Below, in pieces: positions 16,584 through 19,938 of a stretch of DNA of 45,103 nt. Source of the stretch: Bernardetia sp. (lineage in GTDB: Bacteria > Bacteroidota > Bacteroidia > Cytophagales > Bernardetiaceae); the NCBI RefSeq assembly GCF_020630935.1, contig NZ_JAHDIG010000032.1:7502-52604 (forward strand). Reading direction: 5' to 3'. Below the pieces are notes generated by a model. The model was not told the DNA's origin, did not search any database, and saw only the letters and a list, made by a program, of their open reading frames with translations. Every line of letters starts with the position of its first letter. Positions within the stretch are counted from its first letter, which is position 1. A program made the position numbers and the translations under genes.

Positions 16584-17960
16584 ATGTCTTACGAGATTGT
16601 CGTTATTATAATTTTTGTCTTGGGTTATCTTGCTATTGCCCTTGAACATAATATTAAAGTTGATAAAGCTGCACCTGCGCTTCTGATAGCTGTTCTTTGC
16701 TGGACAGTATATATTGTTTCAGAAGGAATACTCCCCCACGATGAGAGTATGATTCACAAAATCGTTCACGGACACGACCAAGGACTACTCACACACCTTG
16801 CCGAAACCTCACAAATTCTCTTCTTCCTGCTTTGTGCCATGACGATTGTGGAAGTAATCGATGCCCATCAAGGTTTTGAAGTCATTACAAAGCGAATCAC
16901 AACAAAAGACAAAAGAAAACTTATTTGGATTATTTGTTGGGTAACCTTCTTTTTATCAGCAGCTTTAGATAACCTTGCTACTACGATTGTAATGGTTTCT
17001 ATGCTTCGTAAGCTCGTAAAAGATAAAAACGATCGTCTTATTTATGTCAGTATGGTAGTTATTGCTGCCAATGCTGGAGGTGCTTGGTCGCCTATCGGAG
17101 ACGTTACAACAACCATGCTTTGGATTGGTGGACAAGTAACGACTACAAATATTATCTCCAAACTAATGCTTCCTAGTATTATATGTTTGTTTGCACCTCT
17201 TACAATTATCACTTTTATGCTCAAAGGCGATTTGAAAGTCGATGAAAACTCAGCAGACTTAGATACTACTCATGGGCACGGTGGACATGCTCCAGTTAAA
17301 GTAAGAGAAACAGACAGAAACTTAGTCTTTGGAATTGGTTTAGCAGGGCTTTTATTTGTTCCTATTTTCAAAACCATTACACATTTGCCTCCTTTTATGG
17401 GAATGTCATTTAGTTTAGGTATTATTTGGCTTACTACTGAAATTCTTCATAACCGTAAGAAAGCAGAAGAAGGTGCACACGGCAAACTTTCGGTAGTTGC
17501 TATTTTGGAGCGTGTAGATGTTCCTAGTGTTTTATTTTTCTTCGGAATCTTATTAGCAGTAGGTTGTTTACAATCTATGGGAACGCTTAATAAACTAGCT
17601 GCATTTTTAGATACAACTTTCTCTGGAGATGGTGGAGTATATATTATAGGTCTTATTTTAGGATTACTTTCAGCCATCGTAGATAATGTACCGTTAGTTG
17701 CAGCAGGTATGGGAATGTACGATATTTCAACAGTAGCTGGTTCTCCTTATGCTGTGGATGGAGTATTTTGGGAGTTTATAGCTTACTGTGCAGGAACTGG
17801 AGGAAGTACGCTTATTATTGGTTCTGCTGCTGGTGTAGCTGCTATGGGAATGGAACACATCAATTTTATGTGGTATCTTAAAAAAATTGCTTGGCTTGCC
17901 CTCATCGGCTATATTGCTGGTGCTGCTGTATTTATGGCAATGCAGTTGTTCTTACACTAA
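16584..17960 (+). CDS. nhaD: NhaD family Na+/H+ antiporter
   Basis: A 458-residue member of the ion-transporter superfamily with about twelve membrane segments. Motifs typical of NhaD are LSAALDNLATTIVMVSMLRK (about 127-146), ANAGGAWSPIGDVTTTMLWI (about 160-179) and, in the second repeat, GLLSAIVDNVPLVAAGMGMY; the two D-N pairs are the inverted-repeat half sites. NhaD proteins from marine and alkaliphilic bacteria exchange Na+ or Li+ for H+ at alkaline pH. A histidine-rich loop (HGHGGHAP, about 225-240) between the halves might sense pH or metals; this is inference. A promoter is seen upstream and a strong terminator downstream, so the gene is monocistronic. Confidence 0.93.
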   Translation: MSYEIVVIIIFVLGYLAIALEHNIKVDKAAPALLIAVLCWTVYIVSEGILPHDESMIHKIVHGHDQGLLTHLAETSQILFFLLCAMTIVEVIDAHQGFEVITKRITTKDKRKLIWIICWVTFFLSAALDNLATTIVMVSMLRKLVKDKNDRLIYVSMVVIAANAGGAWSPIGDVTTTMLWIGGQVTTTNIISKLMLPSIICLFAPLTIITFMLKGDLKVDENSADLDTTHGHGGHAPVKVRETDRNLVFGIGLAGLLFVPIFKTITHLPPFMGMSFSLGIIWLTTEILHNRKKAEEGAHGKLSVVAILERVDVPSVLFFFGILLAVGCLQSMGTLNKLAAFLDTTFSGDGGVYIIGLILGLLSAIVDNVPLVAAGMGMYDISTVAGSPYAVDGVFWEFIAYCAGTGGSTLIIGSAAGVAAMGMEHINFMWYLKKIAWLALIGYIAGAAVFMAMQLFLH

Positions 17961-17994
17961 GTCAAGATAAAAAATATTGTAAACAGGTAAAACG

Positions 17995-18027
17995 AAACGC
18001 TACAAAACCACTTTGTAGCGTTTTTTT
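17995..18027 (+). terminator. Rho-independent terminator after nhaD
   Basis: A 12-bp perfect stem AAACGCTACAAA / TTTGTAGCGTTT (17995-18006 with 18012-18023), five-base loop, ending in seven T residues. Confidence 0.9.
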
Positions 18028-18086
18028 ATGCAGAGTGGTTTCAGTTATCTAAAATACCGTTTTCTTCAGTATGCTGTGATTGTATT

Positions 18087-18405
18087 GGGTGTACGATAAA
18101 AAATCTCTTCTTGTTTTATAGCAAAAAAATATCTTTTACATTTCGTTGCGCTGCAACTTCCAAATAAATTATGACAATCCATTCTACAAATAGGGTGTTG
18201 CGCTGCAACTTTTTCTATGTTTTTTTTACAAAAAACACATTTTTATTAGCTTTTAGCTTAAAGTAGCTGGCATTTCTGCCCTTATACAACACAAGTTGCA
18301 GAGCAACGTTCTGTTGGTAGAATAAAACAAATTGCAGAAAAAAGTAGAGTTGCAGAGCAACGAAATATTGAATGTTTTACGAGAAGTAAAATTTATCGTA
18401 CACCT
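18087..18405. mobile_element. MITE-like palindromic element with terminal inverted repeats and 8-bp flanking direct repeat
   Basis: A 13-bp perfect terminal inverted repeat, GGTGTACGATAAA at 18088-18100 and its complement at 18392-18404, bounds the element. The octamer ATTGTATT lies directly outside both ends (18079-18086 and 18406-18413), as a target-site duplication would. Inside, the halves mirror each other. ATTTCGTTGCGCTGCAACT (18140-18158) matches the complement of 18348-18366 at 18 of 19 bases. GTTGCGCTGCAACTT (18197-18211) matches the complement of 18293-18307 at 14 of 15. Each of these is itself a small palindrome of the form GTTGC-NNN-GCAAC. There is no open frame of note, so the element is non-autonomous. 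The centre (18212-18292) is not palindromic. No family name is claimed. Confidence 0.7.
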
Positions 18406-18450
18406 ATTGTATTTTATTTATTTCTCTCTTTAATGTCTAAATTTTGGTAT

Positions 18451-18489
18451 AAAAAAACACTCTATTTTTATATGAAAACAGAGTGTTTT
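18451..18489 (-). terminator. Rho-independent terminator for UDP-glucose dehydrogenase
   Basis: AAAACACTCT (18454-18463) pairs with AGAGTGTTTT (18480-18489). On the minus strand the stem is followed by a run of seven T residues (18457-18451), placing it downstream of the gene that ends at 18589. Confidence 0.7.
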
Positions 18490-18552
18490 ATGAAATTTTG
18501 AGTTATTCCTTCAAGAACAATTTATAAAAATATAATTCTCAATTTTTAACCT

Positions 18553-18570
18553 TTAGCTCAGCGAAGCTAA
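18553..18570. repeat. Short palindromic repeat downstream of ugd
   Basis: TTAGCTCAGCGAAGCTAA has TTAGC/GCTAA arms. Read in the direction of the upstream gene (minus), it is TTAGCTTCGCTGAGCTAA. A shorter version, TTAGCTTCGCTAA, lies downstream of the last gene in the window (45088-45100) in the same orientation relative to that gene. Confidence 0.5.
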
Positions 18571-18586
18571 TTGTTTATTATTCATT
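18566..18586 (+). repeat. Heptad repeat tract after ugd
   Basis: GCTAATT GTTTATT ATTCATT: three consecutive 7-base units ending in ATT. The last ends two bases from the ugd stop codon. It shares units with the tract at 22511-22552, which ends GTTAATT ATTCATT. Confidence 0.55.
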
Positions 18587-18588
18587 TA

Positions 18589-19938
18589 TTATGCCTCTTG
18601 AGGAATTTGTTTTTTCTCTCTTGTATCTACAACTTGTCTTCCGATGCTGTTGTAATATGTCTTCAAATCTGCCATTTGTTCTAAATCAAATACATTTCTA
18701 CCATCAAAAATAACACGTTCTTTCATAATAGAAAATGTTTTTTCGAAGTTTGGTGTACGGAAAACATTCCATTCTGTAACAATGATTAAGGCATCTGCAT
18801 TTTTGAGAGTATTGTACTGGTTTTCTTCAAAGGAAACTCTATCATCTCCTTCATAGATTTCAAGCACATTTTCCATTGCTTCAGGGTCAAAGGTAGAAAT
18901 AGTTGCGCCAGCTTCTAAAAGCTCATCAATTATATATAGGGCTGGAGCTTCTCTGATGTCGTCTGTATTTGGTTTAAACGCAAGTCCCCACATTGCAAAG
19001 TGTTTTCCTGTCAAATCTTCGCCATAAAAAGATTTTATTTTGTCTATCATAACTACTTTTTGGCGTTCGTTTACTTTCATTACTGAATCCAAAATCTTGA
19101 AGTTATAATTGCTTTCGTTGGCAGTTCTTTCTAAAGCCTGTACGTCTTTTGGAAAACAGCTTCCTCCATAACCCACACCAGCAAACAAGAAACGCTGACC
19201 AATACGGTTGTCTGACCCCATTCCTTTACGAACAAAGTCTACATTTGCACCAACAAGCTCACAAATATTAGCAATTTCATTCATAAAACTAATACGAGTT
19301 GCGAGGTAAGAGTTGGCAGCATATTTTGTCATTTCAGCCGAACGCTCATCCATAAAAATTACTGGATTTCCTTGTCGTACATAAGGACTATACAGTTTCT
19401 CCATGAGTTTCTTTGCCTTTTCAGAAGATGTTCCCACAACAACTCTATCTGGCTTCAAGAAATCATCGACAGCTACTCCCTCTCTTAAAAATTCTGGATT
19501 AGAAACTACATCAAATTCTGTTTTTGCATTTTTAGCAATTGCAGCGTGTACTTTTTCAGCCGTTCCGACAGGAACAGTGCTTTTATCAACAATGACTTTA
19601 TAATCTGTAATTATTTTTCCTAATTGCTCTGCCACACCCAATACATACGAAAGGTCAGCCGAGCCATCTTCTCCTGGAGGTGTAGGAAGAGCCAAGAATA
19701 TAATTTGAGCATCTTTTACAGCTTCTTCTAAATCAGTAGTAAATAAAAGACGTTCTTGTTTGATATTTCTCTCAAACAAAACCTGTAAACCTGGTTCGTA
19801 AATCGTTAGTTTTCCAGATTTGAGGCGATTGATTTTATTCTCATCAATATCGACACACATCACTTGATTACCTGTTTCGGCAAAACAAGTTCCCGATACC
19901 AAACCTACATACCCTGTACCAATGACTGCTAACTTCAT
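18589..19938 (-). CDS. ugd: UDP-glucose 6-dehydrogenase
   Basis: A 449-residue enzyme of usual length that oxidises UDP-glucose to UDP-glucuronate with two NAD+ in the cytoplasm. This feeds glucuronate- or xylose-containing polysaccharides. The NAD-binding start is MKLAVIGTGYVGLVSGTCFA. VDKSTVPVGT and NPEFLREG follow. The catalytic cysteine is Cys261 in GVGYGGSCFPKD, and the UDP-binding C-terminal domain contains MWGLAFKPNTDDIREAPA. It is the last gene of a minus-strand run, but the 275-base gap from the GH3-like gene upstream, holding a hairpin repeat, suggests a separate transcript. A possible minus-strand -7 box (CAAAGATA on the plus strand, 20182-20189) exists, but its -33 partner is 25 bases away, slightly too far. 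No other capsule genes are adjacent. Confidence 0.95.
   Translation of the reverse strand: MKLAVIGTGYVGLVSGTCFAETGNQVMCVDIDENKINRLKSGKLTIYEPGLQVLFERNIKQERLLFTTDLEEAVKDAQIIFLALPTPPGEDGSADLSYVLGVAEQLGKIITDYKVIVDKSTVPVGTAEKVHAAIAKNAKTEFDVVSNPEFLREGVAVDDFLKPDRVVVGTSSEKAKKLMEKLYSPYVRQGNPVIFMDERSAEMTKYAANSYLATRISFMNEIANICELVGANVDFVRKGMGSDNRIGQRFLFAGVGYGGSCFPKDVQALERTANESNYNFKILDSVMKVNERQKVVMIDKIKSFYGEDLTGKHFAMWGLAFKPNTDDIREAPALYIIDELLEAGATISTFDPEAMENVLEIYEGDDRVSFEENQYNTLKNADALIIVTEWNVFRTPNFEKTFSIMKERVIFDGRNVFDLEQMADLKTYYNSIGRQVVDTREKKQIPQEA

Follow-up and report, generated by a model that had tools for sequence, protein, structure and literature searches.

A MITE with ISKra4-type ends in Bernardetia sp. 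carries paired hairpins of the kind found beside Y1 transposase genes

The 319-bp non-coding element described here is, with good probability, a MITE of the ISKra4/p-MULT4 (DDE) kind that took up a REPIN-like cassette and spread it, the cassette belonging to an as yet undescribed system made up of a Y1 transposase and two-hairpin units. What this explanation is based on was observed, namely the ends of the element, its target duplications, its copy number and sister loci that lack it and, for the interior, half-units standing beside Y1 (HUH) transposase genes in the host and in a sample of the phylum, and hairpins that are the best conserved part of the family. As a MITE the element belongs to a known kind and it is the interior that sets it apart. 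Sequence comparison suggests in addition that a Y1 transposase would bind the hairpins and cut them as single strands, and that the MITE was presumably transposed in the past by an ISKra4-type transposase. The features are collected in Table 1 with their positions in the window, by which we mean the whole stretch of 45,103 nucleotides that was analysed.

Table 1. Features of the element and its two neighbour genes in the window
Feature	Position	Strand	Remark
NhaD-type Na+:H+ antiporter gene	16584..17960	+	left neighbour, outside the element
Left 8-bp copy of target duplication, ATTGTATT	18079..18086	.	
Whole element, 319 bp, ISKra4/p-MULT4-type MITE	18087..18405	.	from TIRs, copies and IS ends
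Left TIR, GGGTGTACGATAAA	18087..18100	+	matches ends of autonomous ISs
Left half-unit, A - 7 nt - TTGTAG - B	18145..18209	-	A start to B start 52 bp
Hairpin B, left half-unit, GTTGC-GCT-GCAAC	18145..18157	-	
TTGTAG box, left half-unit	18184..18189	-	
Hairpin A, left half-unit, GTTGC-GCT-GCAAC	18197..18209	-	
Right half-unit, A - 7 nt - TGGTAG - B	18295..18361	+	A start to B start 54 bp
Hairpin A, right half-unit, GTTGC-AGA-GCAAC	18295..18307	+	
TGGTAG box, right half-unit	18315..18320	+	
Hairpin B, right half-unit, GTTGC-AGA-GCAAC	18349..18361	+	
Right TIR	18392..18405	-	final base T; mostly C in other copies
Right 8-bp copy of target duplication, ATTGTATT	18406..18413	.	
Nucleotide-sugar (UDP-glucose type) dehydrogenase gene	18589..19938	-	right neighbour, convergent, outside the element

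An earlier note, made from the letters of this DNA alone, had described a 13-bp perfect terminal inverted repeat, one octamer outside both ends and mirrored pairs of small palindromes inside, and all three were found: GGTGTACGATAAA at 18088-18100 and its partner at 18392-18404 are 100% complementary, ATTGTATT matches in 8 of 8 positions on the two sides, and four 5-3-5 palindromes stand in mirrored pairs. A single base, G at 18087 and T at 18405, separates each octamer from the repeat. Comparison with the other copies, where the usual terminal form is GGGTGTACG...CGTACACCC, and with autonomous ISs indicates that the element begins and ends with these two bases, and when they are counted its length is 319 bp. 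The element is overlapped by no open reading frame of at least 50 aa, in agreement with the view that it codes for nothing. It had also been thought that the whole unit could fold, and as single-stranded DNA it reached -59 kcal/mol compared to -31.96 +/- 4.19 for shuffled sequences (z = -6.45), with none of 100 shuffles folding as well. The idea of a structured RNA found no support, the six Rfam matches in 17900-18600 (E 0.24-0.93) being far under the gathering scores. When a detector for the order hairpin, T[TG][GA]TAG, hairpin was run over the 45-kb window it gave two hits only, which are the two halves of the element, and the left half-unit has the layout that is seen beside Y1 genes. A small palindrome, TTAGCT-CAGCGA-AGCTAA, also lies at 18554-18571 in the gap that separates the element from the gene after it, and motifs like AGCGAAGCT recur elsewhere between genes in Bernardetia.

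In the host assembly (G000; 4.75 Mb in 153 contigs, 97.4% complete) 33 matches to the element were found, part of them to the inner blocks only, and because of these matches the element is not a chance arrangement. About 12 further copies or fragments of it were recognised. Both ends were reached in eight copies, which are the window copy, C5, C27, C54, C82, C44, C21 and C6; the left end of C27 is mutated and C6 has an internal deletion, and partial copies are C107 and C36 at contig ends, two in C17 and one in C22. The pairwise identity among the eight full copies is 58-91% and thus the MITE family is not young. The octamers flanking the copies matched in 8 of 8 positions for the window copy and C82, in 7 for C54 and C21, in 4 for C5 and C44 and in 3 for C6, and in 42 mismatched pairings that served as the control the mean was 3.07 and 7 was never reached. 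The expectation that other copies have 8-bp duplications of their own was therefore borne out by C82, C54 and C21 but not by C5, C44 and C6, so that three of the seven testable copies are without a convincing duplication in the fixed register; the flanks of C5, read by eye, agree in 8 of 9 positions when the register is shifted and taken as 9 bp. Within the 3-3.5 kb examined no mirrored partner was found for the lone TIR-like matches at C3:136919, C8, C9, C21:27527 and C22 (two), and beside the lone match at G000:C91:4535 no transposase was found among the ORFs listed there.

The nhaD gene is present in all six other Bernardetia genomes. Downstream of it, in the 513-1500 bp examined, the element, its hairpins and a paired end were absent in all six. 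In G004 (L182) the same convergent gene pair is separated by 82 bp and one unpaired TIR-like match lies downstream of nhaD, and in G005 (L181) the left flank is partly recognisable. An empty site in a sister strain had been proposed as a check, and this was found in so far as the element is missing behind nhaD in the six genomes, but the divergence between the sites is too great to define an empty target to the base.

A genus-wide search with GGTGTACGACAAA, in which one mismatch was allowed, led to an IS at G006:C44 (locus L066, 1803-3046) whose inverted ends are 1244 bp apart and whose TSD is TATGCGTT. Its transposase scored 160.7 bits (E 6e-47) against the NCBIfam ISKra4 model, which is under the curated cutoff of 205, and 85.5 bits against ISLre2. 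A scan of public genomes gave 56 loci, and in 7 of the 19 that were tested for ends these start with GGGTGTAYGACAAW. The seven loci are from Bernardetia, a Bacteroidales MAG, three Niabella contigs, a Saprospiraceae MAG and a Prevotellaceae MAG, and two of them have an 8-bp TSD, TTGAAATG in the case of L093; no such end pair was found in L091, L095 and L097, the remaining Bacteroidota loci in this test. The end of copy C54 is the same as that of the Prevotellaceae IS (L094) in 24 of 24 bases and agrees with the G006 IS in 13 of 14, and the left tip of the window copy, which has diverged, agrees with L094 in 13 of 14 and with L066 in 12 of 14. An IS with matching ends, as had been called for, thus exists in L094 and, with similar ends and an 8-bp duplication of its own, in L066. 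What is required of an ISKra4/p-MULT4 MITE was found here, that is, terminal inverted repeats, 8-9 bp target duplications (8/8 at the window copy and C82, 7/8 at C54 and C21) and a multi-copy, non-coding sequence. The claim of a non-autonomous transposable element is accordingly well founded, as the element is multi-copy and has 8-bp duplications, its TIRs are of an autonomous IS type and sister species lack it at this place.

Neither the L066 transposase nor NF033572 had a match in the host assembly, and such a transposase was also without a match in five of the six other Bernardetia genomes. A MITE does not strictly need an autonomous partner in the same genome. In L066, L088 and L093 the transposase is in two ORFs in the -1 register at a run of nine A, which is a candidate programmed frameshift. 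In L089 the frame numbers put the two ORFs in the +1 register, and in L094, the IS with the best-fitting end, there is a single frame of 426 codons, so that any assignment to a group within the ISKra4 family is tentative. As a separate observation, an uncultured Pseudomonadales chromosome (OY282460.1; L100-L116 and others) has over 20 loci with relatives of the ISKra4-type transposase, part of them with perfect ends of 24-25 bp.

When the eight copies were compared, counting substitutions only, identity in the hairpins was 94.7% (stems 96.3%, loops 89.3%), in the 24-bp ends 85.3% and in the rest 81.4%. The level of the hairpins was reached by 1.15% of random sets of four 13-bp blocks and by 1.3% of shifted sets. 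All four palindromes are perfect in six of the eight copies, none is perfect in C21 and C6 lost two, and the four blocks stand in the same order in seven of the eight aligned copies. This excess of conservation, which is modest (p about 0.01), suggests a constraint on the stems or conversion between the repeats. The pattern GTTGCNNNGCAAC was found 52 times in the host, 75 times in G005, 14 in G004, 12 in G002, 4 in G006 and not at all in G001 and G003, and its reversed form 0-6 times per genome in the same seven genomes. With a TKGTAG box, both strands being counted, there were 24 in the host, 59 in G005, 3 each in G004 and G002, 1 in G006 and none in G001 and G003, and the reversed control with the box had one hit in the seven genomes pooled. 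By their coordinates, 14 of the 24 host box matches are in MITE copies (one is an overlapping chance match), 2 are beside a Y1 gene, 4 are in elements with ACTCTACCCTACTATTTT ends and 4 are in cassettes without these ends. Because most host half-units sit in the MITE family, a Y1 transposase need not have moved them.

The four-block cassette was also found without the ends of the MITE (L029, L322) and in elements with other ends (L031, L034), and taken together the cassette-bearing elements show several ends, GGGTGTACGAC, ACTCTACCCTACTA and CAAYATGAGTGACA. Of 57 half-units in the examined loci of G005, 40 adjoin the end CAAYATGAGTGACA, 6 adjoin AAAACCGTAYAC and 11 neither, and in 33 of the 40 the sequence stops within 160 bp inside, as expected from a recent high-copy repeat. 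The several end types, along with locus L056 of G005 where CAATATGAGTG ends enclose no hairpin units, could mean that the cassette inserts itself by Y1 activity into MITEs that already exist, each MITE family acquiring it separately and repeatedly. We regard this as unlikely, since the copies of the GGGTGTACGAC family share not only the blocks but also the surrounding sequence, for which one capture is enough, and a cassette-free copy of that family was not recognised.

Some other elements were met with in these genomes. At contig ends of G005 (e.g. L040-L044, L047, L048, L051 and L057) there is a near-identical, recent high-copy element with the end CAACATGAGTGACATTTTTAAG that holds the same inner half-unit and breaks the assembly at dozens of places; its transposase was not found. 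L031 (G000:C63), L034 (G000:C58) and L035 (G000:C75) are a small inverted-repeat element with ACTCTACCCTACTATTTT ends, possible 7-8 bp duplications and half-units in the order A-B-B'-A'. Read by eye, L056 holds a nested insertion with the TSD AATGACAC, and L053 and L056 together have nested insertions with GGGTGC/GGATGC ends and the 8-bp duplications AGTRACAT and AATGACAC inside CAATATGAGTG-ended elements, which appear to be more ISKra4-like MITEs in Bernardetia. Elements of G001 and G004 with GGTGTTCGACAAAGTATGAT ends were considered as kin of the window MITE and rejected, as they are another family. This MITE-like family (L070-L072, L076 and L085 in G001, L077-L080 in G004) has an unequal partner, GGTGTTGTACAAAGTATGATAG, which in five G001 loci is 142 bp from GGTGTTCGACAAAGTATGAT.

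Y1 genes were located by PF01797 hits. In the host genome one half-unit adjacent to a Y1 gene has a stem identical to that of the window element, and the cassettes G000:C3:90482-90651 and G002:C1:3803792-3803972 each stand immediately upstream of a Y1 gene, which in the first case is at G000:C3:89983-90447. On the way towards a Y1 gene there come hairpin A, a gap of 7 nt, TTTGTAG, about 25 nt and hairpin B, and downstream of the gene the arrangement is mirrored; both flanks have it at L157 (GCTGC and GCTAC stems) and at L152 (AAGCC, ACACC and ACGCC stems); the stems vary from locus to locus with complementarity retained. Among the Y1 loci of Bernardetia, the stems in the inverted flanks of L188, L156 and L174 are imperfect, and at L148, L149, L151 and L162 no inverted flanks were seen. 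That a transposase binds the small palindromes, as had been guessed, is probable, as the blocks match the paired hairpins that flank Y1 genes, but the transposase in question would differ from the one that owns the ends.

Matches to the Bernardetia Y1 protein were found in 160 of 291 genomes of the order and in 139 of 296 genomes of the phylum sample, not all of which need be subclass 1.2. The 106 loci surveyed are the better-scoring ones of these two lists, the duplicate locus L278 having been removed ahead of the counts, and the strict detector was designed from the Bernardetia loci so that the held-out loci are those of other genera only. It found a half-unit in 69 of 212 flanks and at 52 of 106 loci, these being 5 of 13 in Bernardetia, 34 of 65 in other genera of the order and 13 of 28 in the phylum sample; under the same detector none was found at 54 loci, including 8 of the 13 in Bernardetia. 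In 3100 Markov-shuffled flanks the rate of the detector was 0.0003 and in 890 random windows of other loci it was 0.0022, and of 15 whole Y1 loci outside the group one had a half-unit on either strand. The A stems are of 39 different kinds among the 69 flanks. Hairpin B is next to the gene in 69 flanks and the polarity is opposite in 29; a complete cassette on one side of a gene would give rise to such opposite cases. A looser test for one hairpin was positive in 85 of 212 flanks and at 63 of 106 loci, with a Markov control of 0.6%, and 44 flanks were positive on the opposite strand as well. An inverted-repeat score between the two flanks was obtained for 25 of 35 loci, seven being left out by the ORF filter and the others for short flanks. 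It exceeded the 99th percentile of mononucleotide shuffles at 10 of the 25, but mismatched flank pairs reached up to 70 (95th percentile 31), since one stem may be common to several loci. The signature Y---Q--HH is present at 102 of the 106 loci, and it is by this motif alone that they are assigned to subclass 1.2; half-units stand at 51 of these 102.

Could the hairpins simply be transcription terminators of the host, or stabilisers of mRNA ends, with a likeness to the Y1 flanks that is generic to short GC-rich hairpins? The position of the element between convergent genes and the conservation of the stems are in line with this, but the likeness extends to the spacing (median 52 bp, 49-57 bp from the 5th to the 95th percentile), to the gap of 7 nt between hairpin A and the box in 45 of 69 flanks, to the T[TG][GA]TAG box and to the order of the parts. 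Moreover, four altered boxes were found in only 8, 0, 3 and 3 of the 212 flanks as against 69, and the left neighbour gene has a terminator-like stem of its own at 17995-18023, which the element leaves intact, all of which makes this explanation very improbable. That the element is a plain MITE whose inner palindromes are subterminal sites of the ISKra4-type transposase owning the ends, with no link to Y1, deserves the least credence, for although the palindromes are mirrored and strongly conserved in all members of the family but one, the autonomous IS with these ends (L066) has no such blocks in the stretch read, and the cassette occurs without these ends, with other ends and by Y1 genes.

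If the element is a MITE with a captured cassette, as we prefer to think, then a Mutator-like DDE-type MITE would have been inserted between the two convergent genes, duplicating 8 bp of the target. This would have been the work of an ISKra4-type transposase that acted in trans, recognised GGGTGTACGAC... and is now without a match in the host assembly; a transposase like those of L066 and L093 is the candidate mover of GGGTGTACGACAAAAATC ends. The interior would be an independent module of two inverted two-hairpin half-units of the kind that flanks subclass-1.2 Y1 genes, each with hairpin A and hairpin B separated in turn by 7 nt, a TTGTAG or TGGTAG box and about 25 nt. The module was probably captured ahead of the amplification of the MITE family, because the four blocks have kept their order in all but one of the aligned copies and are perfectly paired in six, and it would then have hitch-hiked with the MITE. 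In general terms, we lean towards the view that in Bacteroidota the substrate of the subclass-1.2 Y1 transposases is a two-hairpin unit (A - 7 nt - T[TG][GA]TAG - B), enzyme and unit together making up an undescribed system of the REPtron type, and that the doublets of Bernardetia spread chiefly inside unrelated DDE MITEs with their stems kept paired. The unit is a likely substrate for a widespread Y1 group that was catalogued without associated DNA structures. It would also mean that one element unites two unrelated transposition systems, the hairpin doublet of an HUH enzyme being carried by a DDE-type MITE, and that carriage by MITEs is a route by which REPIN-like repeats can spread without a transposase of their own.

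According to Guerillot et al. 2014 (PMC3942029), the ISKra4 family makes duplications of 8 or 9 bp and its ISMich2 group has a -1 frameshift. The window element is like ISKra4 family/p-MULT4 elements in its ends and 8-bp duplications, and L066, L088 and L093 are like ISMich2 in the two-ORF, -1 layout of the transposase; unlike them, the window element has no transposase and has a foreign hairpin module. In the open-licence literature no report was found of ISKra4 with a MITE or of Bernardetia with a transposable element, nor a later report of half-units for this Y1 group, and such absence is weak evidence. TnpA-Y1 subclass 1.2 was introduced by Quentin et al. 2018 (PMC6006769), where REP sequences are entered as 'no' for it and typical terminal IS200 structures are said to be generally absent from its members. 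The Y1 proteins here are like that subclass in the Y---Q--HH motif, in their occurrence in Bacteroidota and in the short core protein, whereas paired hairpins adjoin many of their genes. The hairpins at half of the signature-bearing loci contradict the published negative more than they contradict membership, and the two-hairpin unit beside Y1 genes of this protein group seems unreported.

With IS200/IS605 (subclass 1.1) the shared features are a Y1 HUH transposase, an IS200 score above the cutoff (66.5-75.3 bits for five Y1 proteins against the NCBIfam model, cutoff 55) and subterminal hairpins, whereas here there are two hairpins per end, the stems vary with the locus and movement as a unit is not in evidence. 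A canonical RAYT was rejected, because the same five proteins scored 36.1-41.5 bits against NF047646 (cutoff 80) and because GTAG is 7 nt after hairpin A and not at the 5' foot; the definition in PMC6006769 places GTAG/GTGG 0-2 nt 5' of the hairpin. With REPIN/RAYT (REPtron) systems there is likeness in that inverted hairpin repeats stand by a Y1 gene, doublets of the same type are dispersed between genes in the same genome and the GTAG tetranucleotide is shared, and what distinguishes the present system from them is that each unit consists of two short hairpins with GTAG placed 7 nt after hairpin A.
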